Shown here in pieces: positions 1,043 through 31,759 of a stretch of DNA of 64,000 bases; positions within the stretch are counted from its first letter, which is position 1, and each line of letters begins with the position of its first letter. Source of the DNA: Alphaproteobacteria bacterium. GTDB lineage: Bacteria > Pseudomonadota > Alphaproteobacteria > Micavibrionales > Micavibrionaceae. The position numbers and the translations under genes were made by a program. The notes beneath the pieces are model-generated. The model searched no databases. It was not told where the DNA came from and worked only from the letters and a program-made list of their open reading frames with translations. The DNA is taken from assembly GCA_023384135.1 (NCBI GenBank), contig JAHDXS010000001.1:1-64000 (forward strand), read 5' to 3'.

Positions 1043-1440
1043 GGGGAACCCGCTCGCGCGTTCCCCGTTGCATCCCCTCCGGCGCATGGCGCGGCTCTGT
1101 GGGCAGGCCGTTACCGAGCGCCATGCAACCGTTTCGCCGGTTGACCACTCGTCAGGGTACTGGCCCCCGACACCCGCCAGTCAGGGCCTTCGAGCCCCGA
1201 CACCCTGACCCGTTCCGGGCGACCAAGGGAGCTGTCCGCGCTCCCTGTGGAACCCATCGACCAAAGGGAGTTCCTGCCCCCTGGACCCCTGACCAACCGT
1301 CCGCCGATTGGATGCCGCCAGCGTGTCGCCGCTGGAACACGACCGGGGAGATTTCAGTTCTACCCCGGTCCCCAACGAGCAGGGCGGAGCTTCGGTGCTC
1401 CCCCTTGCAACCCCCATCCGGCTAAGGGGCATCGCCCCTT
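1043..1440. repeat. Non-coding stretch with a series of GC-rich inverted repeats
   Basis: The 867 bases between 735 and 1601 hold no convincing gene; the overlapping frames on both strands share no recognisable protein features. They do contain consecutive perfect inverted repeats: GGGGAAC 1043-1049 with 1060-1066; GCATGGCGC 1084-1092 with 1118-1126; GTCAGGGT 1151-1158 with 1202-1209; AGGGAGC 1226-1232 with 1240-1246; GACCGGGG 1341-1348 with 1363-1370; GGAGC 1386-1390 with 1397-1401; AAGGGGC 1424-1430 with 1434-1440. This density suggests a structured element such as an oriT region, a single-strand origin or a structured RNA. I cannot tell which. Confidence 0.6.
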
Positions 1441-1546
1441 TGCAATCCCGGCCCGCCCACCCACCCGTATTCGAAGCCCGCACAACCGCCAATCGCGGGC
1501 GCATCCAGAAGTCCGCATGCGTGGATATGTACCCGGTCTGTTCTGG

Positions 1547-1580
1547 TATGCTGCACCGGCGTGGTGTAAGGTGGTGCATA
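1547..1580. promoter_or_regulatory. Candidate operator upstream of the RHH-methylase-endonuclease-Argonaute operon
   Basis: TATGCTGCACC (1547-1557) and GGTGGTGCATA (1570-1580) form an imperfect inverted repeat (9 of 11 positions), centred about 40 bases before the GTG start of the ribbon-helix-helix gene. A 10-base imperfect direct repeat (GTGGTGTAAG, GTGGTGCATA) overlaps its right arm. RHH proteins often bind such sites to repress their own operons, so this is a plausible autoregulatory site. That is inferred from position and symmetry only. Confidence 0.4.
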
Positions 1581-1601
1581 CGCGATTCGGGAGCATTTCC
1601 G

Positions 1602-1802
1602 GTGCCTGCAACAAAACAGAATGTGGCCTCAAAGTCCAAACGTGATTCAGCGCCAAGAGCCTCGGTGACGTTTCCGCCTGAGCTTTACGAAATGCTCGAA
1701 GCCATCGCCCGGAGCAAGAAGGTTTCCGTTGCATGGGTGGTGCGCGACGCGGCCGAGAAGTATGTCGCTGACCAATGGCCTCTTCTGGAGAAGCCGCAAT
1801 GA
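1602..1802 (+). CDS. CopG-type ribbon-helix-helix regulator, 66 aa
   Basis: The short protein carries a typical ribbon-helix-helix fold: a beta strand ([14 protein letters not shown]), helix [10 protein letters not shown] and helix [11 protein letters not shown]. The GTG at 1602 is chosen because GGGAG lies about 9 bases upstream and because the longer frame from 1308 has no RHH-like sequence before it. Its stop overlaps the methyltransferase start (ATGA, 1799-1802), so the two are probably translationally coupled. In this position it could be a control protein that delays or limits expression of the restriction operon. The regulatory role is inferred from context. Confidence 0.75.
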
Positions 1803-3547
1803 GTTCCGTCCCCGTTGCCCAAAGAAGCACCAAAGGACTCGCCGCCCGGCAGGCGTCCCTGCCGGGGCTATGCCCGGTTGCGCAGGCTGTCGAGATCCTC
1901 GCCACAGACGCAGGCATAGAAGCCCGCGGGGCGATCTTCACGCGTCGAGAAATCGTCGAGTTCCTTCTCGATCTCTGCGGGTATCAGGCCGACCGTCCGC
2001 TGCACAAGCTCAGGCTCCTTGAGCCGTCGTTCGGCGGCGGGGACTTTCTGCTTCCGGCCATCGAGCGGCTTCTGGCGGCGTGGAAGACATCGGACGATCC
2101 GCGTATGCCCGTGAAGGCTCTGGCGGGATGCGTCCGTGCGGTCGAACTTCACCGCGAGACCTTCACGCAAACGCACGGCCAGGTCATCGACCTATTGTCC
2201 CGCAACGGACTGACCGCTTCGCAATCCATCGCGCTGGCTGATGCGTGGTTGATCAATGACGACTTCCTGCTAGCCGATCTGCCTGACGCCTTCGATGTTG
2301 TTATTGGCAATCCCCCCTATGTCCGGCAGGAACGGGTTCCCGATGTTCTACTGGCGGAATACCGCTCGCGATACACGACGATCTACGACCGCGCCGACCT
2401 CTACATTCCGTTCATCGAGCGGTCGTTGCGCTCGCTGACGGACGGCGGCGTTCTCGGCTTCATCTGCGCAGACCGCTGGATGAAGAACCGCTACGGCGGG
2501 CCGCTCAGGAACCTCGTCTCCGAACAGTTCCACCTCAAAGTCTATGTCGATATGGTCGATACGCCGGCCTTCCATTCCGACGTGATCGCCTATCCGGCCA
2601 TCACGGTCATCGCGCGGGAACGTGGCAAAAGCACACGGATCTCGCATCGACCGTCCATTGAGAGTAAGGCACTGCGGGCGCTCGCCCTGGACCTAACTTC
2701 ATCGCGCCGTCCGGCGAAAGACAGCACCGTGCAGACCATTGATGGCGTGGCGAGCGGTTCCGAGCCGTGGATTCTGGATTCCTCCGATCAGTTGGCCGTC
2801 ATCAGGCGGCTTGAAGCGGCCTTCCCGCTTCTCGAGGAGACCGGCTGCAAAGTCGGAATCGGCGTTGCGACCGGAGCAGACAAAGCCTTCATCGGCCCGA
2901 TGGACGAGTTGACCGTGGAAGATGACCGCAAGCTCCCACTCGTCATGACCAAGGACATCGCCGATGGCACTGTGAAGTGGCGTGGCCTGGGCGTGGTCAA
3001 CCCGTTCGCCGACGAAGGCGGACTCGTCGATCTCGCGCGCTATCCGATGCTCAAACGTTTCCTTGAGGCGCGTAAAGAACAGATCGCCGGACGGCATTGC
3101 GCGCAGAAGGTGCCCGCTAACTGGTATCGCACCATCGACCGGATCACGCCCTCTATCGCCAAGATGCCGAAGCTCTTGATCCCCGACATCAAGGGGCAGG
3201 CCCACATCGTTTTTGAGGAGGGGAAGCTCTACCCCCACCACAATCTCTACTACATCACATCGAACCAGTGGGACTTGAAGGCATTGCAGGCCGTGCTTCT
3301 CTCATCGGTGACGCGGCTGTTCATCGCCACGTACTCGACCAAGATGCACGGCGGCTTTCTGCGCTTTCAGGCTCAGTATCTGCGCCGATTGCGTCTGCCG
3401 CGCTGGAGCGACGTGCCGCAGAACATCAAGAGCGAATTGATCAATGCAGCGGAGACGCGCGACCTTGCAGCCTGCAACGCCGCGACATTTCAACTTTACG
3501 GACTGAGCCGCCACGAAAAGGCGGCGCTTGGCGGAAACGGGGATTAA
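1799..3547 (+). CDS. PaeR7I/XhoI-type adenine-specific DNA methyltransferase
   Basis: A 582-residue class I S-adenosylmethionine-dependent DNA methyltransferase of the N6-adenine type. The SAM-binding motif [11 protein letters not shown] lies near residues 75-85 and the catalytic NPPY motif is at 171-174 (GNPPYVRQE), followed by a C-terminal target-recognition half. The start at 1799 is preferred over 1775 because GGAG lies 8 bases upstream and it overlaps the RHH stop. The next gene is a PaeR7I-like endonuclease, so the probable target is CTCGAG, with methylation protecting host DNA. The gene itself contains a CTCGAG site at 2831-2836. Specificity is inferred from the partner, not from this sequence alone. 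Confidence 0.92.
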
Positions 3548-3550
3548 GGC

Positions 3551-4288
3551 ATGGCGCTTGATTTGGCGGACTATGAAACGAAAGCGCGGGATGCCGTCAT
3601 GGCGTTCTGGGGCAACCGAGAGAAGGCGCGGCAGAAGCAGATCGAAGCCGGAGTCGTCGATCAGGGTGAGCGTGCCAGTGTAACCGGCGGCAAGAACATG
3701 GATGGGTTCGTCGCATTGGTGAAGGACATCGTGCGCGCTAACGGTCTGGCCCATGCACAACTTCATCTGGAGCGCCGTGTTCTGACCCTGCCCGGATATT
3801 TCCGGCCGACTAAGCTCTGGGATCTGCTCGTCATGAATCAGGGCCGCCTTGTTGCGGCCTTCGAGTTCAAGAGCCAGGTCGGACCGTCTTTCGGCAACAA
3901 CTTCAACAACCGCACCGAAGAAGCCATCGGCACCGCGCATGATTTGTGGACTGCGTATCGCGAAGGAGCGTTCGGGGAGCAGACCAAGCCATTTATCGGC
4001 TGGCTCATGCTCTTGGAAGATTGCCCGAAATCCGCCGCACCTGTTCGGGATACCTCTCCGCATTTTCCGATCTTTGCGGACTTCAAGGATGCGTCCTACG
4101 CCCAGCGTTACAACGTGCTTTGCAGAAGGCTCATGCAGGAGCAGCTCTATACGGTGGCATGCATCCTGAAATCACCGCGCACCGCCGCAACGACTGGCGA
4201 CTATGCGGAGCTTTCCGATATGACGGGGCTGCGCACGTTCGTCACCGAGTTCGCTGGACACGTTGCCGTAGAAGCGTCGCGGGCTTAA
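3551..4288 (+). CDS. PaeR7I-family type II restriction endonuclease (predicted CTCGAG)
   Basis: At 245 residues it matches PaeR7I in length and in several signature stretches: AVTGG-like [46 protein letters not shown], and LLEDCP. The PD-(D/E)XK active site is visible as D91, E105 and K107 (WDLL then EFK). PaeR7I is an isoschizomer of XhoI and cuts C^TCGAG. The gene begins 3 bases after the methyltransferase stop and ends 12 bases before the Argonaute gene, so it sits in the middle of one operon. It should cleave unmethylated incoming DNA. The frame is intact with no missing key residue. Confidence 0.95.
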
Positions 4289-4300
4289 GAGGGATGCATT

Positions 4301-6493
4301 TTGTCTATCGTTCTGAACGCCTTCCCCCTGAAAGTCCCCGAACTGGAGCTTGAAGCCCGCCAGGTCCCCTATGACAAGGAGACGCTGGACCGCTTTCGCG
4401 CGGAGCACGGAACGACGCACTCCTTTCGCCGGCAGGGCGACAACATCCTGATCTTCTCGGGAGACAGCACGTTCCCCGTATCCGGCACGCCGCAGACCAT
4501 CGCGCTCAAGGACAACTTCGGCATCTTCTGCTCGCTGGTGAAAGACGGGCTGACACGGCATCTCACCGGGCTGGGCCGCAACCCCTCCGGCTTCAATCCC
4601 ATCGAGCTGGTGAGCGCCAAGCCGGAAGACAATCTTCTGATTCCGATTCTAGGCGATGCTTACCCATTCAAGGTCTGCGCCAAATACACCATCAACACCC
4701 GCACCGTTCAAGGCCATCCGTGCCTCGTCATTGATTGCACGACGCGCCGGGTGCTCAAAGAGAACGGTTTGTTCTTCCTGAACGCCGGGTTCGATCTCAT
4801 GGGGCGCTACGTCGTTACGCAGCAGGAGGACGGATACAGAAAGCTTCTGGGATCGGTGAGCGCGATTAAGGGCGAGACGCTGCACGTCACGCAGCCTGAA
4901 GGTCAGGTCGCGCAGGTCGAAGCGAAGGACGTGTTTCTGGAAGCCAGCCGGACGAACTTCGACGACTACATTCTGCATACCCACGGTGCAAAGAAGGATT
5001 CAATTGTCGAACACATTCGGCAATCCATTTCCATATTCAATGGCGGGGAGAACAAGAAGGCCCGCATCGGCACGCTTAAGAATTACATCCAGTCGAAGAC
5101 CATTCCGCTGATCAACGGAACGCGCATCGAGATCGAGGATTCACGGGATATCCAGAGTGAATGCGTACAGATGCAAAAGCCGGTCTTTGTCTTCAACGAC
5201 AACGGCGAGGCGGATTGGGCCGAGAAAGGTCTGACCTCATCCGGCCCCTATACGAAGCGTACCTTCGACCGAAACGATCCGTCGATCTGCGTGATCTGCG
5301 CGCAGCATGACAAGGGGCGCGTCGAGCAATTTGTTCGCAAGCTCCTCAAAGGCATTTCTGGCAGCAAGTATTTCAGCGGGGGGCTTGAAGGCAAGTTCGC
5401 TCTGGGCACGAGTCGCGTGGAGGTGTTCACGACGGCGACGGATAGCGTGGAGGCGTACAAGAACGCTATCGAGACGGCGATCCGCAAGAAGGCGGATGAC
5501 GGCGGACGCTGGGACCTGGCGCTCGTTCAAGTGCGGCAATCCTTCAAGAAGCTCAACGTCACGGAGAATCCTTACTATTGGGGAAAGAGCCTGTTCTTCC
5601 TGCATCAGGTCCCGGTGCAGGATTTCACAATCGAGCTTCTTTCGCAGTCCGACACTTCGCTCGGGTACTCGCTCAACAATATGGCGCTGGCCTGCTACGC
5701 GAAGATGGGCGGCGTGCCGTGGCTGCTCAAATCGTCGCCCACGCTTTCGCATGAACTCGTGATCGGCATCGGCAGCGCGAATATCGGACAGGAGCGCGGG
5801 GCCGACAATCAGCGGATCATGGGCATTACGACGGTGTTCTCCGGGGATGGCAGCTATATCGTCTCGAACACGTCGAAGGCCGTCGTGCCGGAAGCCTATT
5901 GCGACGCGCTGACTTCAGTGCTCGGCGAGACCATCGAGAAAATCCAGAAGCGCATGAACTGGCAGAAAGGCGACACGATCCGCCTGATCTTTCACGCGCA
6001 GGTCAAGAAGTTCAACAAGGAAGAGATCGAAGCCGTCCGGGCCGTCATAGACAAGTACCGCGAATATCAGATTGAGTATGCGTTCCTGAAAATCTCCGAA
6101 GATCACGGGTTGCATATGTTCGACTCCGCGACCGCCGGGGTGCAGAAAGGACGGCTCGCGCCATCGCGCGGGAAGACGTTCAAGCTCTCCAAGCATGAAA
6201 TGCTGATCTACCTGATCGGCCAGCGCGAGTTGCGGCAGGACACGGACGGGCATCCGCGCGGCGTGATCCTCGATGTTCACAAGGACTCCACCTTCAAGGA
6301 CATCAAGTATCTGAGCGCCCAGCTCTACAGCTTTGCCTCGCATTCGTGGCGCAGCTATTTCCCGAACCCCATGCCGGTGACGATCAGCTATTCCGACCTG
6401 ATCGCCCGGAATCTCGGATGGCTCAACCAGCTTCCGGGCTGGAACGACTCGGTGATGATCGGGAAGATCGGGCAGTCCCAATGGTTCCTGTAG
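4301..6493 (+). CDS. Long prokaryotic Argonaute (catalytically inactive, long-B type)
   Basis: A 730-residue Argonaute with N/PAZ-like regions before about residue 330, then MID and PIWI domains. The MID domain shows YYWGKSLFFLHQVPVQ, a Y...K...Q pattern consistent with binding a guide 5' end. In PIWI the first catalytic Asp is Gly (VIGIGSANI, G491) and the second is Gln (IFHAQ, Q567); an Asp survives near the C-terminus (ISYSDLIARN). The slicer tetrad is therefore broken. Long pAgos of this kind work through an associated effector. The TTG start at 4301 is supported by AGAGGG 7 bases upstream. It overlaps the next, nuclease, gene by 13 bases. Sub-clade assignment needs a tree. Confidence 0.9.
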   Translation: MSIVLNAFPLKVPELELEARQVPYDKETLDRFRAEHGTTHSFRRQGDNILIFSGDSTFPVSGTPQTIALKDNFGIFCSLVKDGLTRHLTGLGRNPSGFNPIELVSAKPEDNLLIPILGDAYPFKVCAKYTINTRTVQGHPCLVIDCTTRRVLKENGLFFLNAGFDLMGRYVVTQQEDGYRKLLGSVSAIKGETLHVTQPEGQVAQVEAKDVFLEASRTNFDDYILHTHGAKKDSIVEHIRQSISIFNGGENKKARIGTLKNYIQSKTIPLINGTRIEIEDSRDIQSECVQMQKPVFVFNDNGEADWAEKGLTSSGPYTKRTFDRNDPSICVICAQHDKGRVEQFVRKLLKGISGSKYFSGGLEGKFALGTSRVEVFTTATDSVEAYKNAIETAIRKKADDGGRWDLALVQVRQSFKKLNVTENPYYWGKSLFFLHQVPVQDFTIELLSQSDTSLGYSLNNMALACYAKMGGVPWLLKSSPTLSHELVIGIGSANIGQERGADNQRIMGITTVFSGDGSYIVSNTSKAVVPEAYCDALTSVLGETIEKIQKRMNWQKGDTIRLIFHAQVKKFNKEEIEAVRAVIDKYREYQIEYAFLKISEDHGLHMFDSATAGVQKGRLAPSRGKTFKLSKHEMLIYLIGQRELRQDTDGHPRGVILDVHKDSTFKDIKYLSAQLYSFASHSWRSYFPNPMPVTISYSDLIARNLGWLNQLPGWNDSVMIGKIGQSQWFL

Positions 6494-7641
6494 AAAGGGA
6501 AAACGCCTACGCGCTGCGCGAATACCTTCACCGCAAGGTGATCGAGAGCGCGCACGCCGATCCGTTCAAATCCTCCTTTCTGCATTTTCTGGGGCTGTCG
6601 AAAGACGGCGGTCCGTCCTTCGACTTTGCCACGCTCTCCTTGTACCCGCGCTGCGCGATTGCCGGGCTGGGGATTCTGGACGAGACCGTATCCGCGCAGG
6701 ATGTGTCGCGGCTGCTCGGGCAGGCCGCCAAGATCGACTCCACGCCCCGGCCCTGGGTGTCGGACGTGTTTGGCGTCATGGCCGTGAAATGGATGGCCGC
6801 GCAGATGAAAGATGCGCGCATCGCGCGGGAGTTTGAGAACTGGACTTCCGGGTTTCTTGCGCAGCAGGCCAGCGGCGACCATCTCAATATCTTCGAGAAG
6901 GACATCGCGGCCTATATCCGCAGCGGCGAGTCCGCCGTCTATGCGAGTGCGTGCGTGCCGCTCTTTCTTCACTACAGGACGCTGCGGCGGGTTGAGGATC
7001 ACCAAAACCGCATGTCCCTGATCGGCCGCTTCATGACCGAGTTACGTGCGCAGGCGCAAGGAGACGCTTCCACGGCGCTCTTGAGCCTGATGGTTTATGT
7101 CTTCGATCAGGTCAATGAGGACGTGGCTACCGTCCCGCCGAAAGGGTGGAGCCTCGACGACCTTCTGGGGTTTCTGGAGCATATCCCTGTCGGCCTCAAG
7201 CGGTGGACCTGGGAGGAGTCGGGTCGCACGAGAGGCGCTGAACCCGTCAAGTGGCCCGTGGAGAACGAATACCACGTCCAGAATCTTCTCTATGTCCTGC
7301 TCGGGCCGATCTTCAACGACATCGCAGATGAAGTGAACCTCCAGCCAGTCGGGCAGAAGAACCCGCGCATTGATCTCTACCTGCCGTCCCTGCATACGGT
7401 CATCGAGGTCAAGTATCGGAAGGACGTGAAGAAGTCCTTCCCGGCGCTCATCGGCGAGATCGCCGAGGACGCGTCCCTTTACCGAGCCGATGCGAAATTC
7501 AAGGATGCGCGGATCGTCAGCTTTCTGTGGGACTGTACGCGCGCAACCCAGGAACACGCGAAGTTCAAGGAAGGCGTATTGAAGATCGACGGCATGAGCG
7601 GGTGCGTTGTGGTTAGCGCGCCTTCGACGATGGACGAGTAA
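6481..7641 (+). CDS. pAgo-associated PD-(D/E)XK nuclease effector
   Basis: A 386-residue protein starting at ATG 6481, inside the end of the Argonaute gene, so it is almost certainly coupled to it. The first 270 residues are mainly helical with no recognised motif. The C-terminal domain holds a PD-(D/E)XK nuclease core: D298 (RIDLYLP), E309 and K311 (VIEVKYRK). Nucleases fused to or encoded beside catalytically dead long-B Argonautes are known to act as abortive-infection effectors once the guide-loaded Argonaute detects invader nucleic acid. That role is inferred here from the active site and gene overlap. Confidence 0.85.
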   Translation: MVPVERENAYALREYLHRKVIESAHADPFKSSFLHFLGLSKDGGPSFDFATLSLYPRCAIAGLGILDETVSAQDVSRLLGQAAKIDSTPRPWVSDVFGVMAVKWMAAQMKDARIAREFENWTSGFLAQQASGDHLNIFEKDIAAYIRSGESAVYASACVPLFLHYRTLRRVEDHQNRMSLIGRFMTELRAQAQGDASTALLSLMVYVFDQVNEDVATVPPKGWSLDDLLGFLEHIPVGLKRWTWEESGRTRGAEPVKWPVENEYHVQNLLYVLLGPIFNDIADEVNLQPVGQKNPRIDLYLPSLHTVIEVKYRKDVKKSFPALIGEIAEDASLYRADAKFKDARIVSFLWDCTRATQEHAKFKEGVLKIDGMSGCVVVSAPSTMDE

Positions 7642-7665
7642 CTGACTCTGGTAGTGGTGCAGACG

Positions 7666-8562
7666 TTACCTTCGCTTGCTTTTGGATGGCCAGGGAAGTG
7701 TGCCGTCTAGCTCCTTAAGCAGTGGCTCATCCTCATCCTCTTCGTCACGGGGCTCGTGAACAGGTTTCAGGCTGTCATCGAACCAGATCAGCGAGAGGCA
7801 CTGATTCCATTCCCGCAACAGAACGGATTCTTCTGCGAGAAGTGGACGGATCTTGATGCCCCCGTTGAACCAGACATCCGAAGCCAACTCATCGTAGTCC
7901 TCGGTCTTTGAGCCGTTCTGTATGAGGCGGTAAGCAACGCTGCCCTGGGGAAGGGGGATGTTGAAGTCGATCCATCCCTTCAACTCGTTGAGAAACTTCG
8001 AGCGGGAGACGTAGCGTGTCTGTCCGTCCTCGCTCAGGACAAAAGCGCACGGCTCATGCGCACTGACAGCGAAGCGCGAGCCGGTCGTGGTCAGGGACGC
8101 TTTGTATTTCTCCGCCAGTTCTTTAACGGCGGCCATTGAAATATCAACATCACCGACGTCCTTGCTGAACAGGTCATAAGGCAGCAGGCATTCTGCCGCG
8201 AACACGTCGCACAACATCTCTTCCGGTGGGCGCTTTCCATAGCGCATCAACGTGCCGGTCGTCAGTTTCGGCCCGTGATGTTGAGAGGCTAGTTCGAGAA
8301 CGATATGGGCGAGTTCATGAAGCACCGTGAAGCGCTGACGCTCCTCACGGTGATTGCCATTCACGATGATGACGTGCTTGCCCTTGATCTGGGTCGTCTG
8401 TCCGGATTCATCATCGGACAGGTCATCAACGATTTTGATCTTCGCGTTCGCGGCGGCAGCCAGGCGCTCAAGATCGACAGGGGCCGATGCTACGCCCGCC
8501 TCGCGAACGAACTTGCGGGCTTTGAGAATGGTTTGAAATTCCTTGGTCTGGAAATCGCCCAT
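7666..8562 (-). CDS. ImmA/IrrE-family metallo-endopeptidase
   Basis: A 298-residue protein with the zinc-protease motif HELAH (H82, E83, H86) in RFTVLHELAHIVLE, a following CDVFAAECLLP segment typical of this family, and an acidic tail (EEDEDEP). ImmA/IrrE proteases usually cleave or inactivate a partner XRE repressor, which derepresses mobile-element or stress genes. The XRE gene lies immediately upstream, its stop codon touching this start (8562/8563). The gene ends 24 bases from the Argonaute operon, in convergent orientation. Regulation of a neighbouring system is possible but not shown. Confidence 0.9.
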   Translation of the reverse strand: MGDFQTKEFQTILKARKFVREAGVASAPVDLERLAAAANAKIKIVDDLSDDESGQTTQIKGKHVIIVNGNHREERQRFTVLHELAHIVLELASQHHGPKLTTGTLMRYGKRPPEEMLCDVFAAECLLPYDLFSKDVGDVDISMAAVKELAEKYKASLTTTGSRFAVSAHEPCAFVLSEDGQTRYVSRSKFLNELKGWIDFNIPLPQGSVAYRLIQNGSKTEDYDELASDVWFNGGIKIRPLLAEESVLLREWNQCLSLIWFDDSLKPVHEPRDEEDEDEPLLKELDGTLPWPSKSKRR

Positions 8563-8943
8563 TCAGTCCTCATCGTCAAACAAGGTAGCCAGACGATCAA
8601 TGTGTTTGCGCCATTCGTCTTTGGTTTCCGGGCGCTTTCCGCGAAAGCTCATCTGGTAGGACGGTTCGAGCAAATCAAGCGGCCGGTCCTCATCCTCAAT
8701 GAAGACATCGACGAGCAGCTCATTCACGGACTTGCCGACCAGCAGTCGCAGAAGGGCAGCACGCCGGGGCGGGAGTTTCAGATACCGGACGAACGAATCG
8801 AGGACCTGTTCGGACGGGGCGGTTTTCTCGTCCTTTTCCAGCCGGTGAATATAGGCGTGGTCGATTTCACAGAGCTTTCCGAGTTCGCGCAGGCTCAAAC
8901 CGCGATCTTCCCGGAATTTCTTCAGCGCATAGCCGAACGACAT
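8563..8943 (-). CDS. XRE-family helix-turn-helix transcriptional regulator
   Basis: A 126-residue protein with an N-terminal XRE helix-turn-helix (FGYALKKFREDRGLSLRELG to YIHRLEKDEKTAPS) and a C-terminal helical extension that probably mediates dimerisation or contact with the ImmA protease. AGAGGA precedes the start on the minus strand. It forms a two-gene operon with the ImmA/IrrE gene. An inverted repeat overlaps the predicted promoter 40-60 bases upstream, which fits autorepression. The promoter region also faces the CBASS operon, so it may influence that system too; this is inference. Confidence 0.88.
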   Translation of the reverse strand: MSFGYALKKFREDRGLSLRELGKLCEIDHAYIHRLEKDEKTAPSEQVLDSFVRYLKLPPRRAALLRLLVGKSVNELLVDVFIEDEDRPLDLLEPSYQMSFRGKRPETKDEWRKHIDRLATLFDDED

Positions 8944-8972
8944 CAGAGTCCTCTTGACAGATAGCGATAATC

Positions 8973-9001
8973 TTTATACGGTGTTGTCTAGCCCGGACAA
9001 C
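8973..9001 (-). promoter_or_regulatory. Promoter and candidate operator of the XRE-ImmA operon
   Basis: On the minus strand TTGTCC (9000-8995) and TATAAA (8978-8973) are separated by 16 bases, a reasonable sigma-70 promoter for the XRE gene. A perfect inverted repeat GTTGTC/GACAAC (8983-8988 and 8996-9001) covers the -35 element and spacer, a good position for repression by the XRE protein. Confidence 0.5.
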
Positions 9002-9180
9002 GGACGGCTCTGAGTGCTTTTATATGGCTTATCGTTGGGTTCACTCATGGCTCTGACTCCGTAGTCTACTCAGACATACACCTTAACGAAGTGAGTTCGC
9101 GTTGACAAGGCAAATCTGAACCCGTCCACAGCAAGAGTGGGAACAGACGCGCCTCGGATCAAGAACAAGAAAGGCCCGAC

Positions 9181-10224
9181 ATGAGCAAAGAAGAAGATCA
9201 CCAACTGCCCAAGCGCCGCATCCTGTGTATTGACGGGGGCGGAATCCTCGGCACCTTTCCTGCGGCCTTTCTCACCGGGCTTGAGCAGCATTTGCAGGGC
9301 CGACCCATCGGATCGTATTTCGATTTGATTGCCGGCACATCGACCGGCGGGATCATCGCCATCGGCCTCGCTATGGGGTTGCGCGCCTCTGATCTTCTCG
9401 ATCTCTACGAAAAACGCGGCCCGGAAATCTTCGGCCAGGGGCGCGGCACGGTGGCGGACTTCATCCTCGACAAGCTGCGCCTCGGCCGCCAACTCGTCAT
9501 GAACAAGCATGATTCCGATCCGCTCCGGCAGGTTCTGACCGACACGCTCGGCAGCAAGCGGATCGGCGATGCCACGACAAGGCTGCTCATCCCGGCCTGG
9601 AATCCGGTCGCGCGCTCCGTCTACATATACAAGACCGCGCACCACGCGCGGCTTCGCAACGACTACAAATCCCTCTCCGTTGATGCCGCGATGGCCACAG
9701 CCGCCGCGCCGACCTATTTCCGCCAGCACGTCACGCAACACGCTGTAGGTCTGACTGACGGGGGCACCTGGGCAAACAATCCGACGGCGCTGGCCGTTGT
9801 CGAGGCCATCACGATGCTCGGCTGGCCGGGTCACTCCCTGCATGTGCTGAGCCTCGGTTGCCTGGAGGAGACCTACACCATACGAAAGTGGGCGGGGATC
9901 GGCACGCTTGGCTCGAAGGTCATCAAGCTCTTCATGGACGGCCAGTCGCACGGTGCGATGGGCATTGCCAAACTGCTGACCGGCCATGAGCACGAGCGGA
10001 AAGACGCAATCCACCGCATCAATCACACCGTTCCTTACAGCGCCTACAAGATGGATGACACGCGGGTCATTCAGGACCTCAAAGGTCTGGGCTATTCCTT
10101 CGCACGCGATCGGCACCCGGTTCTCGATCCCGTGTTCTTCGGCCAGCCAGCGGAAGCGTTTGTGCCGGTCTATGGGTTTGATCAGGAGCCGGATAAAGCA
10201 TCGAAAGAGAGGTTGTCGGCATGA
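9181..10224 (+). CDS. capV: CBASS effector: patatin-like phospholipase (CapV-like)
   Basis: A 347-residue patatin. The glycine-rich oxyanion loop (IDGGGILGTFPA, about 19-30), the nucleophile motif GTSTGG with S54, and the catalytic Asp in the DGG motif (D193, LTDGGTWANNP) are all present. CapV-type effectors are switched on by a cyclic nucleotide made by the adjacent CD-NTase and then degrade membrane phospholipids, killing the infected cell. It is the first gene of the operon and its stop overlaps the CD-NTase start (ATGA 10221-10224). No transmembrane segment is visible. Effector assignment rests on family and context together. Confidence 0.92.
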   Translation: MSKEEDHQLPKRRILCIDGGGILGTFPAAFLTGLEQHLQGRPIGSYFDLIAGTSTGGIIAIGLAMGLRASDLLDLYEKRGPEIFGQGRGTVADFILDKLRLGRQLVMNKHDSDPLRQVLTDTLGSKRIGDATTRLLIPAWNPVARSVYIYKTAHHARLRNDYKSLSVDAAMATAAAPTYFRQHVTQHAVGLTDGGTWANNPTALAVVEAITMLGWPGHSLHVLSLGCLEETYTIRKWAGIGTLGSKVIKLFMDGQSHGAMGIAKLLTGHEHERKDAIHRINHTVPYSAYKMDDTRVIQDLKGLGYSFARDRHPVLDPVFFGQPAEAFVPVYGFDQEPDKASKERLSA

Positions 10225-11423
10225 CGATGGATATCAAAAAGTACTCCAAGTTTCTGGAGCAGGTCGCCAGCGAGATTGACATCCCGCCCGGCAAATATCA
10301 GGACGCGGTGGATCGGTATGAAGCCGTAGGGCGCTGGCTTGAAGGTGGCGAGTACCCCGGCTGCCAGGGCGAACTCCTGATTTATGTGCAAGGCTCGTTT
10401 CGATATGGAACCGTGACGAAGCCCATGCGGGATGGAGTCGAGTGTCGGTATGACATTGATCTCGTGTCCGAACTGCCGGCGGACATAAACCTGACGACGC
10501 CGCAAGCCCTCAAGTCCATGGTCGGTGACCGGCTGCGGGAACACGGGACGTACAAGAGGTTGCTTGATCCCGAGGGGGGGCGCTGCTGGACGCTCGAATA
10601 TGCTGAGCAGGACGGTGTGGGATTTCATTTGGATGTTTTGCCTGCCGTCTCGGACCATCGTGGACTTCTCGGCACGGCGATTGCGATTACCAACAAGAAG
10701 GGTGAAACCTATACGTGGTCGGCGAGCGATCCGCGCGGCTACGGGGCATGGTTCGATAGCAAGAATGCCGTCGCCTTCAACCGTATCCTGCTGGAGCAAA
10801 AGCAGGAGATTCAGCGCCGCGCGCCCCTGGTGTTCGCCAGCATCAACAAAGTTCCCAATCAGTTGGTCCGCACGCCGCTCCAGCGCTCGATCCAGCTCAT
10901 GAAACGCCATCGGGATTTACGGTTCAATCATGAAGACCGCATCGCCTACGGGCCGATCTCCGTCATCATCACGACGCTGGCGGCGCATCTTTACGGCAAC
11001 GAGACGGACGTGTACTCCGCCTTGGCGGGCATCGTACGAAAACTTCAGGGACATGCGGCGCTCGTCGAGAACCGCGCTATCGACGGCTCCCTGGCGGCAA
11101 TGGGCCTGATCCAGCGGCGGCCTGACGGAACCTGGTATATCGGCAATCCGGTCAATCCCGCCGAAAACTTCGCTGACCGCTGGCATGAAGACAATCACGC
11201 CCGCGCGCGGGCCTTCTTCGGTTGGGTGGACGCGCTCCAGAAAGACCTCCTCAATATTCTCGATGAGTCCAGTCCGCGCCTGCTCAAAGAGCATCTCGGG
11301 CGCGCTCTGGGAACGGCTGCGGTCGCCACGCACTTCGATCTTCTCATTCCAGCGGCGGTGGCACTCGATACACCACCGCGTATTCACATCTCCAGCCCTG
11401 CGAAACCGTGGAGGGACGAGTGA
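10221..11423 (+). CDS. CBASS CD-NTase (cGAS/DncV-like nucleotidyltransferase)
   Basis: A 400-residue nucleotidyltransferase. The active site is complete: GS motif at 58-59 (GSFRYGT), metal-binding D78 and D80 (YDIDLV), and a third Asp at 138 (FHLDVLP). The C-terminal helical half is typical of the DncV-like group. On phage infection such enzymes make a cyclic di- or trinucleotide that activates the effector, here the patatin. The product cannot be deduced from sequence alone. The C-terminus (PAKPWRDE) is what a type II CBASS E2 enzyme would be expected to attach to a target. The genes on both sides overlap it. Confidence 0.9.
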   Translation: MTMDIKKYSKFLEQVASEIDIPPGKYQDAVDRYEAVGRWLEGGEYPGCQGELLIYVQGSFRYGTVTKPMRDGVECRYDIDLVSELPADINLTTPQALKSMVGDRLREHGTYKRLLDPEGGRCWTLEYAEQDGVGFHLDVLPAVSDHRGLLGTAIAITNKKGETYTWSASDPRGYGAWFDSKNAVAFNRILLEQKQEIQRRAPLVFASINKVPNQLVRTPLQRSIQLMKRHRDLRFNHEDRIAYGPISVIITTLAAHLYGNETDVYSALAGIVRKLQGHAALVENRAIDGSLAAMGLIQRRPDGTWYIGNPVNPAENFADRWHEDNHARARAFFGWVDALQKDLLNILDESSPRLLKEHLGRALGTAAVATHFDLLIPAAVALDTPPRIHISSPAKPWRDE

Positions 11424-12151
11424 CCGATGATTTGCAGCGGCAAATCGACGAACTGACTGGAGTCCATAAAGGGCTCAAGAATGTTGTTGAGCGCGATGAT
11501 GGGATTGTCGTCTCCGGCCTGCTGCCGTTCGAGGCGTCTGCGGACGGGCTGGAAACCATCACGGAGTCCTTCGAGATCGAGTTGACCATTCCGCGCGATT
11601 TCCCGGAGACGTTGCCGCGTGCCAGGGAGACGGGAGGCCGGATTGCGAGCGACTACGAGCACCGCAACCCAAGCGGCACGCTTTGCCTCGCCGTACCTAT
11701 CGAGCAGCGGCGTATCTTCCTTGAGAATCCCACGCTGCTCGGGTTCGTGAACCGGCTGGTCATCCCATATCTCTATGGGTACTGCTACTTCAAGACGCAC
11801 GAGCGCCACCCGTTCGATGAAGCGGCCCATGGGCATGAGGGCATCTTGCGGCACTATGTCGATACGCTCGGCCTGCGCGACGAACTCTCCGCGCTGACCG
11901 TCATCAGTTTTCTTCTCGAACACGGATATCGCGGACATCATGATTGTCCGTGCGGCAGCGGCACGAGAGTCAGGGACTGTCATGGACCGACGCTGATGGC
12001 GTTGCATCAGACCCATAACCAGCAATCGCTGCGAGGGGATTTTGCCGCGATCTTTAGCCTCTGCTTCAAACAGTTCGAAAACCAGCAAATCTCTTTTCCA
12101 AAGCCGTTGAGATTGCAGCTTCTCCGGCTTCTGAAAACATTCAAGGACTAG
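11420..12151 (+). CDS. CBASS stand-alone E2-like protein with C-terminal SEC-C motif
   Basis: A 243-residue protein starting at GTG 11420, with GGAGGG upstream and overlap with the CD-NTase stop. The N-terminal half resembles E2 ubiquitin-conjugating folds: FEIELTIPRDFPETLP, then HRNPSGTLCLAVP with the presumed catalytic C89. No E1 or JAB domain or gene is present, so this looks like a 'short' type II CBASS. E2 proteins in such systems form a thioester with the CD-NTase C-terminus and conjugate it, which primes the enzyme. Near residue 185 a CPCGSG...CH stretch matches a SEC-C zinc-binding motif, an extra module whose role is unknown. Confidence 0.82.
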   Translation: MTDDLQRQIDELTGVHKGLKNVVERDDGIVVSGLLPFEASADGLETITESFEIELTIPRDFPETLPRARETGGRIASDYEHRNPSGTLCLAVPIEQRRIFLENPTLLGFVNRLVIPYLYGYCYFKTHERHPFDEAAHGHEGILRHYVDTLGLRDELSALTVISFLLEHGYRGHHDCPCGSGTRVRDCHGPTLMALHQTHNQQSLRGDFAAIFSLCFKQFENQQISFPKPLRLQLLRLLKTFKD

Positions 12152-16370: not shown

Positions 16371-16865
16371 GTTTCGGCCTCGATGCGCGTGAGCGCGCAG
16401 CCGTCCATCTCGCAATCGCCCTTGCACTGATCCCATGCGGGCGGCCTGACGGTCATCCAGACCGTCGCTATCGCAATCCCTCACATCGGCGCATCGCGTT
16501 GATGCCGGAGGCTGGCCGCGCAGACGGGCGGGCGCGCCCGGCGGCGAGCGTTCCACTCGATTGAAGGCAGGCCGCACGGATCGAACGTGTCGGCTCCGGT
16601 CCTTTCTCCCGGCTGATCTTTGATCGCGTTCGCCGTGTTCTTCATGGCTTGCCTCTCCTTCGGGCGGTCGGTTTCGAAAGCTCCACCGAATCTGACGGGG
16701 GCGACGCACGCGCAACGGGCTGCCCGCTCCATTCCCCCGGATCAAGTCCGGGGTCCCGTGTTGCCCGTTCCCCCTGCGCTGTGCTTCGGGTGCGCGTCGC
16801 GTCTTAGCCCCCGTCTCCTCTGGTTCCGCGTGTTTCGAACCAACCGCCAACCGAAGGAGATCACC
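16371..16865 (+). promoter_or_regulatory. Intergenic region with shared leader copy B and a REP-like palindrome
   Basis: No gene is supported here. The right part repeats the DUF2958 leader (16711-16730 and 16760-16773, then TGGTTCCGCGT to GAAGGAGA before ArdC). Between the two conserved blocks a palindrome CCCCGGA (16735-16741) / TCCGGGG (16747-16753) has been added relative to copy A; CGGATCAAGTCCG-type palindromes are frequent dispersed repeats in Alphaproteobacteria. The left 340 bases show nothing I recognise. Confidence 0.6.
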
Positions 16866-17783
16866 ATGTCTAACGAACACGCCGACCGCAAAGATGTCTA
16901 CAGCCGGATCACGGACCGGATCATCGCCGACCTCGAACAGGGTGTGCGGCCCTGGATGAAGCCGTGGAACGCCGAGCACGCCGCCGGGCGCATCACCCGC
17001 CCGCTGCGCCATAACGGCCAGCCCTATAACGGCATCAACGTCCTGATGCTCTGGTCCGCTGCGATGGATCGCGGCTACAGCGCGCCAATCTGGATGACCT
17101 ACAAGCAGGCCGCCGAGATGGGAGCGCATGTCCGCAAGGGCGAGAAAGGCGAGCTGGTCGTCTACGCCAATAAGATCACGCGCACCGAGCATGATGCCGA
17201 AACCGGCGAGGACGAAGAACGCACCATCCCGTTCCTGAAAGGCTACACCGTCTTCAATGTCGAGCAGGTGGAAGGCTTGCCCGCGAAGTTCTACGAACTG
17301 GCCGAACCGGCCCTTGACCCCGTGCAGCGGATCGAGGCCGCAGACGCCTTCTTTACCGCCACCCAAGCGGATATCCGTCACGGCGGCAACATGGCGTACT
17401 ACGCCATCGGCTCCGATCACATCCAGATGCCGCCCTTCGAGAGCTTTCGCGATGCCGAGAGCTACTACGCGACGCTCGCCCACGAGGCGGCTCACTGGAC
17501 CCGTCACCCCACGCGCCTCGACCGCGACTTCGGTCGCAAGTCATGGGGCGATGCGGGCTACGCCCGCGAAGAGCTGGTCGCCGAACTCGGGAGCGCCTTC
17601 CTGGCCGCTGATCTCGGGCTCACCCTCGAACCCCGCGACGATCACGCCGCGTACCTCGGCCACTGGCTCGCCGTCCTCAAGGAGGACAAGCGCGCGATCT
17701 TCTCCGCTGCCGCTCTTGCGCAGCGCGCCGCCGACTTCCTGAACAGCCTTCAGCCCAAAGCCGAAACCGAGGCCGCCGCATAG
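16866..17783 (+). CDS. ardC: ArdC-like antirestriction protein
   Basis: A 305-residue protein with the N-terminal ArdC single-stranded DNA-binding domain (DVYSRITDRIIADLEQG, RPWMKPWN, PYNGINVLMLW, about 8-130) and a C-terminal zincin-like metallopeptidase domain with HEAAH (H206, E207, H210). ArdC proteins protect incoming single-stranded plasmid DNA from restriction during conjugation. GAAGGAGA precedes the ATG. It sits on an element that itself carries a restriction system, as part of a cluster of genes commonly found in the first-transferred region of conjugative elements. Confidence 0.92.
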   Translation: MSNEHADRKDVYSRITDRIIADLEQGVRPWMKPWNAEHAAGRITRPLRHNGQPYNGINVLMLWSAAMDRGYSAPIWMTYKQAAEMGAHVRKGEKGELVVYANKITRTEHDAETGEDEERTIPFLKGYTVFNVEQVEGLPAKFYELAEPALDPVQRIEAADAFFTATQADIRHGGNMAYYAIGSDHIQMPPFESFRDAESYYATLAHEAAHWTRHPTRLDRDFGRKSWGDAGYAREELVAELGSAFLAADLGLTLEPRDDHAAYLGHWLAVLKEDKRAIFSAAALAQRAADFLNSLQPKAETEAAA

Positions 17784-17843
17784 CGGCCTCTTGCGTGCTC
17801 CGCTTTGGCGGAGCACGCATTCTCGGCGTTGACCGAGCAACGG

Positions 17844-18020
17844 CTAGAAGCCGGGGGCGCGGTCGCTGAGTTCCGCGCGGATGTTTTGCAGCGTGGCGAA
17901 CGCGTTCAGCCGTTCCTGCGGCTGCTCGAACGTCGCGATGGCATTGAAGATGTCGCGGTACAGCGCGCGCAGTTCGTTCGTGGATTTCGAAGCCAGTTCG
18001 AAGCGTGTGGTCAGTTTCAT
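17844..18020 (-). CDS. Small hypothetical protein, 58 aa
   Basis: ATG at 18020 follows GGAGACGATC, a good ribosome site, which is why this start is used instead of the upstream one at 18110. The product is a helical, charged peptide (MKLTTRFELASKSTNELRAL...). It converges on ArdC. Small genes of this kind accompany plasmid ardC and parB clusters, but I know no function. Confidence 0.55.
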   Translation of the reverse strand: MKLTTRFELASKSTNELRALYRDIFNAIATFEQPQERLNAFATLQNIRAELSDRAPGF

Positions 18021-18402
18021 GATCGTCTCCTTGTGGTGTAAGGAGGCCCGGTCCATCCGGAGCCTTTCCTGGCCCGGAACAGACACAATCATGGGCAGAG
18101 AAGGGCGCACGGCTTGGCCGGGCGGACGACAGACAGCAACAAGGCGGATCAGGGAACGAGACGAACGCCGGACGGCGGCGGAAGACGCGAACGGCGCAGC
18201 GCGCGAAGCCGAGCGGAATCAATGCAAATCAAGATCGGAGAGCAGCGTGGACGGGAGAACGCGCTTCGCGCAATAGAACACCCGCATGGAACGAGCAAGC
18301 CAATCTGTCTGACGAATACAGCTATAACGCTGCGGAATCTTGTTGACCCGAATCGGGAGCGTTTGCTAACGCTGGTTGTGAGCGTGTGTAAACGGGGAAC
18401 GT
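18021..18402. other. Intergenic region, nothing recognised
   Basis: This 382-base stretch separates the leftward small gene from the rightward membrane-protein gene. Both promoters should lie in it, but no consensus pair is convincing. A weak inverted repeat GCGTT/AACGC is seen near 18360. Base composition starts to fall here toward the more AT-rich start of the RTX locus. Confidence 0.4.
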
Positions 18403-18963
18403 ATGAACCACGACAACAATGAGACTGATGAGGGTCCGGCTTCTCTGGAAGTTCCTAAACGGCGTATCGGTCGTGTACGCATGAGCCTGCTGCTTGGCCT
18501 ATTGCTATTGATGTCCACTCAGTATCTCAACCACACCGGATTCTGCTACGCCGAGATGAAGTACCTCAGCGAGCGCGAGCTGATGGATCGCGTGTTGTTT
18601 GGAAGTAATGCCCGCTCCATGACTGATAACGAGAAAGTCGATGACCTAAGAGCGCGTACTGGAGCCGAATATCCTGACTGCTGCCGCGTCAGCAAATTTG
18701 CGTTCGGGTGGTCGAGATTCACGATCCTGTTTAACAGCGCTCTTGGAAACTATCGGTACGGGTTTGAATACAGCTATCCGGCAGATAAAGCGAAAACGGG
18801 TTCTGAGGATTTGTTCCAGTGGTATGAGCATTCAATAAATTCTTGTGGCTCAAGTGCGCATACAGGATTTGGAGAAAGCAACTCGCAAGCCTCGTACGAG
18901 GCCATATTGAGATCTAACAACAAGAATTGGAGAAGAATAGAGGATGCCGACAGAGCCGATTGA
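18403..18963 (+). CDS. Hypothetical protein with one N-terminal membrane segment, 186 aa
   Basis: A cytoplasmic N-terminus of about 28 residues is followed by one hydrophobic segment (SLLLGLLLLMSTQYL, about 28-43) and a soluble, Cys-containing C-terminal domain (DCCRVSKF, SINSCGSS) that would lie outside the membrane. It resembles no family I recognise. Its end overlaps the giant RTX gene by 20 bases, so the two are probably made together and it may be an accessory or export-related partner. Its lower GC content matches the beginning of the RTX gene. Confidence 0.65.
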   Translation: MNHDNNETDEGPASLEVPKRRIGRVRMSLLLGLLLLMSTQYLNHTGFCYAEMKYLSERELMDRVLFGSNARSMTDNEKVDDLRARTGAEYPDCCRVSKFAFGWSRFTILFNSALGNYRYGFEYSYPADKAKTGSEDLFQWYEHSINSCGSSAHTGFGESNSQASYEAILRSNNKNWRRIEDADRAD

Positions 18964-21900
18964 ATTGACGTTTGAAGAATTCTCCGACATTCATGTCATA
19001 ACAAATCTCTTCTTATACGGAACTAAGACTACGCCGGAGCACTACGTTGACCGCTTGCGTTCCGCTCAGGAGTACGCTGATTTGCCACTGCTTGAGATTA
19101 ACAACGGTACCGCAACAGTTCCCGTTCTTAAGATTAACATTGACATGAAAGACTTCATGGAAAATGGCCCTGGTAAGTACGTCAGGGCAGCGCAGTTTGA
19201 ATTTGTTCAGGACTTCTTGGCGGGAAACGTTGCGCTACCCGTAGGAACGTATACACGCTTAGACCTAAGGGACAATCATGGGTTCAGCAATAGTGATTTT
19301 ACGGTGGACTTTCAGCAGTATGAGTTAGAGACGGATAATCCAGACTACGGCTGGCGGACATATATCTACAACTCATCGGCCTTTATTCTGTCGGATACCA
19401 CCCAGTTCGTAGTACATGCAGATGGCACGTTCTCAATCCAGAACGTATCCGTCCATGCGTTGAATGACAATTTCGACTTTGAAAGTGGTGACTGGCTAAC
19501 TCAACTAGCAAACTACATTCAGTTGGGAGGTGTTGTTGACCCGTACGCTATCGGACGCAGGTTGCAGTTTGAATTTCAGAACAAGCAAGATGTTCCTGTA
19601 ACTGAGGTCTACGATTTCACGACTGACCATCAGGCATACTTACAGATTGACTATGATGGAGGCATTGCAGATGCCAATGTTCCGATACAGTCTGTTATCG
19701 CCAATCTAAAAGCGGCTGGAACGATTGAGTATCTGACCAAACAAGGCCAGCACGTTATCTACGGAACGGCGAACGCTGACGCTCTCACCGGCACATCGTC
19801 ATTCTCGGATGTAAAGGACATTCTCGTCGCGGGCGATGGCAACGACGAGGTTGATGGATACAGAGGCGATGACATCCTTTACGGCGGCGCCGGGGAAGAC
19901 ATCCTGAAAGGCAGTCTTGGCCGAGATGAGGTCTATGGGGAGCTAGGCGACGACGTAATTTTTGGATTCGCCGGAACCAAGGGACTGATGTCCTCGGGAG
20001 GATTAGAGGGGGATTTGTATCACGGCGGCTCCGTGTTCATCCAAGATCAATCAACCGATGGGAGCGATACGCTCAACTACAGCCTCGTGGCTCTTGGCGG
20101 GCTGACACTTGAATATCTCGATCTGGTCAACGGTGATGTAGCCATCTACCAGAGCGCGCACGCGAGCGTCCCGTTGGAAAACAGAACACAGGATGTTGCT
20201 GTCTCGATTGAGACGTTCGTTCTGACCAACGACAGCGATACGTTGAAGCTTTCAAGCGGAGCACCGACTCGGGCCGCAAAGTTCTTTGGACTCGGCGGAT
20301 CGCTCGATAAGGTGGATTTGTCCGATAGCAGCCAAGGGATCACAGTCAACCCGGAAGATCAAAACGGGTTCCGCTCCATCGGGGCTGGGAAGTTCAGGGA
20401 GTTCGAGGTCATCCTCGGCTCAAACACGAAGAACGACATTTTCAAGGGCGGTGGTTCGGCCATCACGTTCGACGGTGGGGGGCACGAGACAGGAACGTTC
20501 GGCGACCGGGCCGACTACAGCGCCCTACTGGACCCGACCGGGCAATCTGGCCTGCCGACCAAGGGCCATATCGTGGTGGATATGACCAACGATACCGTCC
20601 GCGTGTCCACCAATGCGCGCGGCACCTCCCTCGACACGATCCGAAACGTCGAGAGCTATATCGGAACGCACGGCAACGACTTCTTCCGCGCCAAGGAGGG
20701 CGTAAGCGGGATTTCCTTCGACGGATTCGACGGCGTGCGCGACAGAGTCGATTTCTCGGCGTTCACCAGCGGCGTCACGGTTGATATGGAGACCGGAGCG
20801 GGCACCGTGCTGATCGTAAATGTCGAGGAAGTCAATGGCACCGCCTACGCAGACAATTTGACAGGAAGCGCCGCGAATGAATGGTTCTTCGGCAATGCCG
20901 GGGCGGACGAAATTTCCGGTGGCGGCGGGGACGACTATATCGAAGGTGGCGCGGGCGTGGACACGCTCGATGGCGGCGGCGGAGACGATACGTTCTATTT
21001 CCGTGGCAGCAGCGATGATCTTGATATCGTGAGCGGTTCCGGCGGGACGGATACGGTGTTCCTCGCTGGCTCGTTTAAGATGACCGGCGAACTGGCTTTC
21101 ATCCGCAACGGTGCAAACATCACCATCGTCGGCGCGGCGGTTGCCGACAGTTCAGTCGAGTACGTCGAGTATGGTGACACGGCCCGTTTTTCCATCGCTT
21201 CACTCGGACGGGAAGAGCCGCTTTACATCCCTGACAACTTCGTGGCCGGGACCACCTCTGATGACCCGGACCTCGTTGGCACGAGCCAGGACGATCTATT
21301 CTCCGTGTCAGCCGGCATTGATGTCATCGACGGCGGTGTCGGGCACGACGTCATGGATTATTCAGCTCTGTCTGCGGGGATTGTTGTCGATCTGAGCGGG
21401 GCTTCGGTTGTGGTGGATAAGGATATCCTCGGCGAGCAGTTCGACACGCTAACGTCCATCGAGGGATTCTGGGGTACGGATTTCGGAGATACCTTTAAGG
21501 GCAATGCAGCGGATAACGAATATCTCGGCGGCGCTGGTAACGACATTCTTCTCGGCGGCGGGGGCGACGATGTCCTGATTTCTGGCGGTGGCGCAGACCT
21601 CATACATGGCCAAGACGATAACGACTGGATTCACGGTGGCGGCAACGGCCTCCTGTCCGGTGGCAACGGATCAGATCACATCTACGCCCAGGGTGCGGAT
21701 ATTGCGTATGGCGATGGAGGGGAAGATTTCCTCTATGGAAGCGATTCGATCTTGGATGGTGGCGATGGGAACGACTTTCTCAAAGGTACTGCTAGCACGG
21801 TCTACAGGGAGAGCGCAGGAACGGATGTCATCCATGATTCTGGAAACGGTGTGCTGCAACTTACCGCAGGCAGTATCGGCGATCTGACGTTTTACCGTGC

Positions 21901-25864: not shown

Positions 25865-25871
25865 TGGTGAT

Positions 25872-26150
25872 TCAGTTCAGTGTGCGGTCTTCGAGGCGGA
25901 ACGGATTGTGAAGCGCGCCCCAGGCGGCGAATAGTTGATCGTCGGGCATCGCGGCGAACCGCTGCTTGAGCGCGGCGATCTCCGGGCTTAGCCCATCGGC
26001 TTTCGTTTCCCGCAGATTGTGCCGCAGGATCGCAAACGGCTGGCGCATGAACATCGGGTGCATCTCCAGCGCCAGCAGCAGCGTTTCCAGATCGTCGATG
26101 GTTCGCTCTGCGTTCCAATCGTTGCTAAGCATCGGGTTCGTGCCCCACAT
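25872..26150 (-). CDS. Hypothetical protein downstream of the relaxase, 92 aa
   Basis: A small helical protein (MLSNDWNAERTIDDLETLLLALEMHP to ALHNPFRLEDRTLN). ATG 26150 is favoured because the segment before it in the longer frame (from 26204) looks like shadow of the relaxase gene. It overlaps the relaxase end by 26 bases, so it is the last gene of the leftward mobilisation operon. No family is recognised. Confidence 0.55.
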   Translation of the reverse strand: MWGTNPMLSNDWNAERTIDDLETLLLALEMHPMFMRQPFAILRHNLRETKADGLSPEIAALKQRFAAMPDDQLFAAWGALHNPFRLEDRTLN

Positions 26151-29760: not shown

Positions 29761-29978
29761 TGCGTTCGTCCGTTCTCTCGTTCGCGCTCGGCGCGGATAT
29801 CCGCTTCCGCCGCTTGCCGTGCGAGGGCTTTCACCAGCGCGACGATCTTGTCTTCAAGCGGCGTCCCGGTCCGATTGTGACTCTCTTTCGGACGAGTCTT
29901 CAACCGCTGGAGCGCCTTGGTTTCCGCTGGATGTGCGGCGCGTTCACGCATGATGGCCCGCTCCCTTGAGCGTGCCAT
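29757..29978 (-). CDS. Small charged protein, 73 aa
   Basis: A short highly charged protein (MARSRERAIMRERAAHPAET ... LEDKIVALVKALARQAAEAD). Its stop overlaps the recombinase start by 4 bases, a coupling that supports a real gene. Function is unknown; a role with the recombinase, such as a directionality factor, would be speculation. Confidence 0.5.
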   Translation of the reverse strand: MARSRERAIMRERAAHPAETKALQRLKTRPKESHNRTGTPLEDKIVALVKALARQAAEADIRAERERENGRTQ

Positions 29979-31757: not shown

Positions 31758-31759
31758 GA

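Follow-up and report, generated by a model that had tools for sequence, protein, structure and literature searches.

A BPAN Argonaute-nuclease pair at the distal end of a predicted restriction-modification operon whose restriction module was repeatedly exchanged or lost

We analysed a stretch of 64,000 nucleotides from a Micavibrionaceae genome (Alphaproteobacteria bacterium, assembly GCA_023384135.1, contig JAHDXS010000001.1, positions 1 to 64,000; hereafter the window), in which five open genes form a same-strand block on the forward strand between positions 1602 and 7641. The genes encode a ribbon-helix-helix (RHH) regulator, a DNA methyltransferase and a restriction endonuclease, followed by a long-B prokaryotic Argonaute (pAgo) and the nuclease bAgaN, which correspond to the pair known as BPAN. 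The genome carries three BPAN copies (A, B and C; contig C2), whose pAgo proteins are 100, 97 and 92% identical, respectively. Copy A lies in the window with the following features.

740 to 1420, no strand assigned: leader common to copies A and B, 96.6% identical to B over 682 bp
1552 to 1578, forward strand: candidate RHH operator, an inverted repeat TGCACC/GGTGCA with the core GTGTAAGGTGGTGC at 1564-1577, recognised by its recurrence before RHH genes
1602 to 1802, forward strand: RHH (CopG-like) regulator with a GTG start, PF07878/PF01402 (RHH_5/RHH_1)
1799 to 3547, forward strand: Eco57I/TaqI_C-type DNA methyltransferase of a PaeR7I/XhoI-type restriction-modification (R-M) system, identified by profile matches, with the motifs EPSFGGGDF and NPPY
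3551 to 4288, forward strand: XhoI/PaeR7I-family restriction endonuclease, PF04555 (3e-95, profile positions 1-191 of 191)
4301 to 6493, forward strand: long-B pAgo of the EcAgo type with a TTG start, Piwi, PADLOC class II pAgo (7e-294)
6481 to 7641, forward strand: bAgaN, a PD-(D/E)XK effector nuclease, PADLOC Aga_Helical-REase (7e-138), with D298, E309 and K311

The RHH and methyltransferase genes overlap by 4 bp, the methyltransferase and endonuclease genes are separated by 3 bp, the endonuclease and pAgo genes by 12 bp, the largest gap in the block, and the pAgo and bAgaN genes overlap by 13 bp. These coordinates bear out the gene order, strand and spacing (overlaps or gaps of at most 13 bases) claimed in an earlier sequence-only reading of this DNA, which had also proposed a single coupled transcript. 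The proposal is well supported by gaps of at most 12 bp, the RHH gene and operator at the head and the recurrence of the junction in other genome records, and the block is likely transcribed as one unit. A strong promoter and terminator between 4288 and 4301, which would have spoken against it, find no room in 12 bp. A scan of positions 1400-7900 found no sigma-70-like sites compared to 1.6 in shuffled sequences, which neither supports nor excludes internal promoters, and four terminator-like sites compared to 5.2. Purifying selection acts on each of the five genes, with pairwise dN/dS values of 0.03-0.10 in comparison with Luteimonas huabeiensis (L017) and a metagenome-assembled genome (MAG; L021).

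The methyltransferase and endonuclease represent a PaeR7I/XhoI type II system, in which a PF04555 endonuclease with a D..ExK motif is preceded by an Eco57I-type methylase. Systems of this type recognise CTCGAG. The endonuclease retains D91-E105-K107, and equivalent residues are kept in seven plasmid homologues that have no link to BPAN. The plasmid systems share the M-R gene order, the methylase type and the PF04555 endonuclease; among the matches listed, those covering at least 95% show 59-72% identity. They differ in that BPAN does not follow any of the seven that were inspected, and none of three short RHH sequence words occurs in the 450 bp before their methylase genes. The genome of copy A has a single XhoI-type endonuclease compared to three BPAN copies. 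A general linkage between the two was dropped as a candidate: two draws of 398 genomes, our own included, held seven others with a XhoI-type endonuclease and four others with the bAgaN profile, none of them with both.

Judged from their similarity, the last two genes of the operon are the known BPAN abortive-infection pair. The pAgo matches the EcAgo chain of PDB 23wq with 1397 bits over residues 2-730 and is 82% identical to the E. coli protein VTB96935v, and bAgaN, which lies directly downstream and carries the D-EVK motif, matches the EcbAgaN chain over residues 1-384. According to excerpts of the report on the E. coli pair (EcBPAN; Song et al. 2023, PMC10620215), EcAgo is inactive as a DNase, takes 5'-phosphate RNA from the transcriptome as guides and single-stranded DNA (ssDNA) as target, and when guided activates EcbAgaN, upon which genomic DNA is degraded. 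In the same excerpts D298/E309/K311 mutants of EcbAgaN are inactive, EcbAgaN alone is not lethal, and EcBPAN was assayed as a pAgo-nuclease pair with a plasmid origin as trigger. By its similarity to EcAgo the copy A pAgo is probably catalytically 'dead' as well. Copy A and EcBPAN have both proteins, their order, the TTG start and D298/E309/K311 in common. In contrast to copy A, the E. coli locus examined has no R-M gene directly upstream, and the excerpts name no R-M gene in its operon (PMC10620215); type I R-M genes are found on the opposite strand some 6 kb downstream, and the locus L032 likewise has type I genes downstream on the other strand. In viral contigs we found no pAgo relatives; 73 stretches matched the pattern and none was confirmed.

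Comparison of the three operons within the genome indicates that BPAN has kept its place while the genes before it changed. In copy B, type III Res-Mod genes precede BPAN. In copy C it is preceded by type III Res-Mod genes, a PDC-S06-type ATPase and a 206-aa protein, which appears HEPN-like by eye from its RNNLFHG stretch and gave no family hit, and is followed by a GmrSD gene. Copies A and B are 96.6% identical over BPAN (3340 bp), as they are over the leader, which is fully identical at 1081-1380; positions 872-1466 are 84.6% identical to copy C. Between these flanks the genes of A and B are unrelated except for the RHH genes (72% over 118 bp). Copy A in turn matches L017 and L021 at about 85%, continuously from 1552, at the operator, to 7638 and 7634. 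Both match patterns show that in copy A an operator-RHH-M-R block of the L017/L021 kind lies between flanks that copy B has as well. Across BPAN, every 100-bp window between about +1340 and +2940 is the same in A and B, a pattern of the kind that recent gene conversion between the two would produce. The pAgo tree, with 6 of 28 inner branches open, places A, B and C in a single clade (95/97) that is separate from the remaining XhoI-linked rows. QatA-D defence genes follow BPAN copy B on its downstream side (L004, 1578-6581).

The junction of copy A recurs elsewhere, as the sequence-only reading had suggested should be checked. In four of 28 BPAN loci drawn from a genome collection, each from another genome record, a XhoI-type gene ends 12 bp before pAgo. 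All five genes are present in Luteimonas huabeiensis (L017) and the gammaproteobacterial MAG (L021). The short contig of a Hyphomicrobiaceae MAG (L018) holds the end of the endonuclease gene, pAgo and bAgaN, and that of a Pseudomonadota MAG (L019) the end of the methylase gene, the endonuclease gene and pAgo. We tallied 42 loci, comprising our own three, one each from Shewanella, E. coli, Methylococcus and Fibrella, the 28 collection loci and seven sampled genomes (G386, G076, G277, G538, G601, G893 and G812). The sampled genomes were judged mainly from open reading frame (ORF) tables and first residues, with the HsdS of G893 as the only neighbour scanned. Upstream neighbours were counted in 38 loci, leaving out Methylococcus (record edge), L025 (115 bp upstream) and L036 and L037 (truncated pAgo match); the 36 loci counted downstream additionally omit L019 and L042. 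L019 and L042, which end before or inside bAgaN, and L040, whose nuclease has no bAgaN match, were counted by pAgo only. Outside the tally stand two Roseomonas loci and Alicycliphilus (short or insertion sequence-flanked pAgo), G274, G689 and G1084 (weak or partial) and six Hymenobacter, Haloplanus and Leptolyngbya plasmid records (distant; without bAgaN match). Same-strand R-M genes lie upstream in 14 of the 38 loci, in 12 of them nearest to pAgo and in two through the ATPase/206-aa pair. The junctions are of the XhoI type (five loci) or type III, the latter in copy B, in copy C and L022, in the Nitrospiraceae locus L042 and in three Bacteroidota, or of type I (L029 with a gap of 151 bp and G893 with 10 bp). 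In the sampled genome G538 (L073, 5944-10335), a 1463-aa ORF shows pAgo similarity after a long N-terminal part, with bAgaN next to it. In Acinetobacter dispersus (L034, 6315-14751), BPAN has the Gabija genes GajA and GajB on one side and a Drt3a-type reverse transcriptase on the other.

A further group of loci carries scars of R-M loss. In Luteimonas gilva (L016), Hydrogenophaga intermedia (L020) and Xanthomonas albilineans (L024) the operator and a 66-aa RHH gene are followed by 130 bp and then BPAN. By eye the spacer begins with a methylase-like ATGA overlap, and the three spacers end in frame with GYRAVEASRA-stop, GHRAVEASRT-stop and GHCAMEPSRT-stop, resembling the C-terminal codons of the window endonuclease; in L026, which lacks the RHH gene, the spacer ends with NNCAVEASRR-stop. 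Since endonuclease homologues free of BPAN have this C-terminal region too, the tails are endonuclease remnants left by the loss of R-M. In the pAgo tree, L026 falls into one group with the three RHH-scar rows (91/86). The E. coli spacer shows a weak likeness to these scars (25-26 of 36 bases to L016, L024 and L026; 12 matches in the distal 22 nt, P ~0.003) and is a weaker candidate for an endonuclease-tail scar. Separately, the spacer before pAgo in L027 and L029 resembles, by eye, the end of the copy C 206-aa gene (GGCCGCACG..AGAGGATCA) and is perhaps the remnant of another replaced neighbour. Taken together, comparison of the loci demonstrates that the R-M module before BPAN was exchanged or lost several times while BPAN stayed. 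Our searches of the open-licence literature turned up no earlier report of such an exchange. The sequence-only reading had described the coupling for a PaeR7I-like type II system; it is not confined to such systems, as type III genes occupy the same slot twice in this genome and type I genes do so in two other lineages.

The constant element upstream is the head. All three BPAN operons of the genome begin with an RHH gene and operator, and a like head precedes the type II, type III and R-M-deleted versions. The candidate operator that the sequence-only reading had placed before the operon is an inverted repeat, with arms read by eye as TGCACC at 1552-1557 and GGTGCA at 1573-1578. Of 35 BPAN loci scanned, 9 have its core once, ahead of the RHH gene. 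In the genome of 2,808,457 bases the core GTGTARRGTGGTGC occurs three times, each before an RHH-RM-BPAN operon, while the reversed control gives no occurrence. A longer, 22-base form of the pattern matches operators B and C; operator A does not fit it, and it has no match in 338 other genomes sampled (339 with our own).

Relatives of the RHH protein were found in 36 plasmid records, 35 from Xanthomonas and one from Methylomonas. In each of five stretches opened (L086-L090), a homologous RHH gene with a similar palindrome in front heads an R-M operon. These operons differ from copy A in carrying unrelated type II genes, BsuBI/PstI-type in three and cytosine methyltransferase genes in two, and no BPAN was seen behind them in the five stretches. 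Since the head is also carried by R-M operons that have no BPAN, we assign the regulator to the R-M part and reject the RHH gene as BPAN's own; the head accompanies R-M modules, and BPAN is what was added. With an RHH gene and a palindrome before M-R, copy A has the predicted layout of an RHH-controlled R-M operon. In the open-licence literature the only passage we found when looking for RHH control of R-M concerns toxin-antitoxin regulators.

BPAN itself also occurs in an arrangement that suggests mobility. In L010 (Shewanella plasmid pSA70-2), L025, L030 and L035, where BPAN is apparently an integron gene cassette, the pAgo start is followed at +3432 to +3436 by a 67-bp attC-like match. L025 has 11 attC-like matches on that strand, some of them overlapping, and in L023 and L028 an attC-like sequence lies upstream of BPAN. 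As background, E. coli, Methylococcus, L033 and L043 each give a single plus-strand match well away from the ends of BPAN, and L027, L038, L010 and L023 one minus-strand match each. Folding of the attC-like sequences beat shuffles in two of five untrimmed stretches (L010 and L025, z ~ -2.5) but not in L023, L035 and L030, so that the assignment is based on sequence and position. No attC-like matches occur in the window stretch, copy B or copy C, and none of these three has the attC site directly downstream that marks an integron cassette.

We consider it somewhat more probable than any other reading, at slightly better than even chances, that an autonomous BPAN abortive-infection pair has joined an autoregulated R-M operon (operator-RHH-M-R) as its last two genes, the two layers sharing control and keeping independent chemistry. 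The operon anatomy, the common operator head, the exchange and loss of R-M and selection on five genes are established at the level of sequence. We take BPAN to be autonomous because it is found without R-M directly upstream, also in its apparent integron form. As each of the two, BPAN and R-M, persists in the absence of the other, the best fit is a pair of independent layers with a common control. In such an arrangement, the RHH protein would bind the operator and limit transcription of the whole operon. Upon entry into a new host the methylase would protect the genome, and the endonuclease and BPAN would stay low. In the established cell restriction would act first. If invader DNA survived and replicated, pAgo loaded with 5'-phosphate RNA guides could pair with invader ssDNA and switch on bAgaN, whereupon DNA would be degraded and the cell killed.

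Two points weigh against a joint defence of this kind. No recognised same-strand R-M gene lies upstream in 24 of the 38 loci, and BPAN persists after R-M loss, so that cooperation between the two is at least not required. The excess of R-M genes upstream speaks for the docked arrangement, with 14 of 38 loci compared to 2 of 36 downstream (both GmrSD; one-sided Fisher P 0.001) or, per junction type, 7 of 23 compared to 1 of 23 (P 0.023). This comparison, however, used hand-picked neighbours and R-M probes drawn from these same loci, was typed by hand from gene tables with types grouped by eye, and covers non-independent loci, so that the P values are a guide only.

The main rival explanation is hitch-hiking, in which a promoter-poor mobile BPAN survives behind any transcribed gene and R-M operons are common and well expressed on the same elements; the linkage would then reflect expression and dispersal, not joint defence. 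This is a serious possibility, if on balance an unlikely one. It gains from the attC-like sites that flank BPAN in some relatives, from other upstream neighbours (Gabija, Fic, caspase-like and EAL genes, whose distances vary) and from the loci that lost R-M and kept BPAN. However, R-M was counted more often upstream than downstream, the seven R-M junction types include a Bacteroidota one whose pAgo is 35-36% identical, and R-M genes joined to BPAN continue to evolve under purifying selection.

Rather doubtful, in our view, is an arrangement in which a fixed RHH/operator head and BPAN tail enclose an exchangeable R-M slot, breaks made by R-M give ssDNA that licenses pAgo, and swaps of the module re-address suicide. 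Direct feeding, in which restriction ends are resected to ssDNA as the target of the RNA-guided pAgo and cutting itself triggers suicide, is improbable. Restriction enzymes of types I, II and III all make breaks, and an interchangeable R-M module would fit this idea. Yet most counted loci have no same-strand R-M upstream, successful restriction would kill the cell just saved, and EcBPAN responded to a plasmid origin as a pAgo-nuclease pair (PMC10620215). That the slot can hold other R-M types, and that R-M can be lost while BPAN is kept, argues against an obligate endonuclease-Argonaute mechanism. The suggestion of the sequence-only reading that restriction fragments serve as Argonaute guides is disfavoured by the RNA guides reported for EcAgo, while restriction-derived ssDNA as pAgo target, or a staged defence, is possible. 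Least probable by far is a restraint in which an R-M protein would bind and silence BPAN until phage anti-restriction releases it, as with PrrC and the type Ic PrrI system (PMC3506569), since the XhoI-type, type III and type I proteins that would have to act as partners are unrelated, BPAN can occur with none of them directly upstream and EcbAgaN alone is not lethal.

The surroundings of the operon hold further defence and mobility genes. Directly after it, window positions 7666-12151 contain a CBASS-like set with capP and capH matches on the reverse strand and, on the forward strand, matches to a phospholipase effector, a cyclase and E2. The region 16620-36600 carries mobile-element genes for an ArdC-like antirestriction protein, a relaxase, a large serine recombinase, a type IV coupling protein and a tyrosine integrase, and within it lies a 2306-aa RTX-repeat protein (18944-25864).

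An association of R-M with pAgo as such is already known, since excerpts of PMC6299218 mention type III restriction proteins and HsdS in the neighbourhood of pAgo; we found no paper on PaeR7I together with Argonaute in the open-licence literature. The idea that immunity and suicide are coupled came from gene neighbourhoods, PrrC being named as the single well-studied model, and a figure legend on the subject includes a pAgo locus (excerpts of Makarova et al. 2012, PMC3506569). Copy A resembles PrrC with PrrI, a suicide tRNase with a type Ic R-M system, in that R-M and a toxic effector share one locus. It differs in effector and sensor, since BPAN brings an RNA-guided sensor for its effector, and in that its R-M part can be exchanged. 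The RHH family may represent a portable controller of R-M operons. One genome with three natural variants that have the same head and tail and different R-M, together with three other genomes in which R-M has been deleted, provides a ready-made comparison for whether R-M alters when and how the pAgo suicide module fires.

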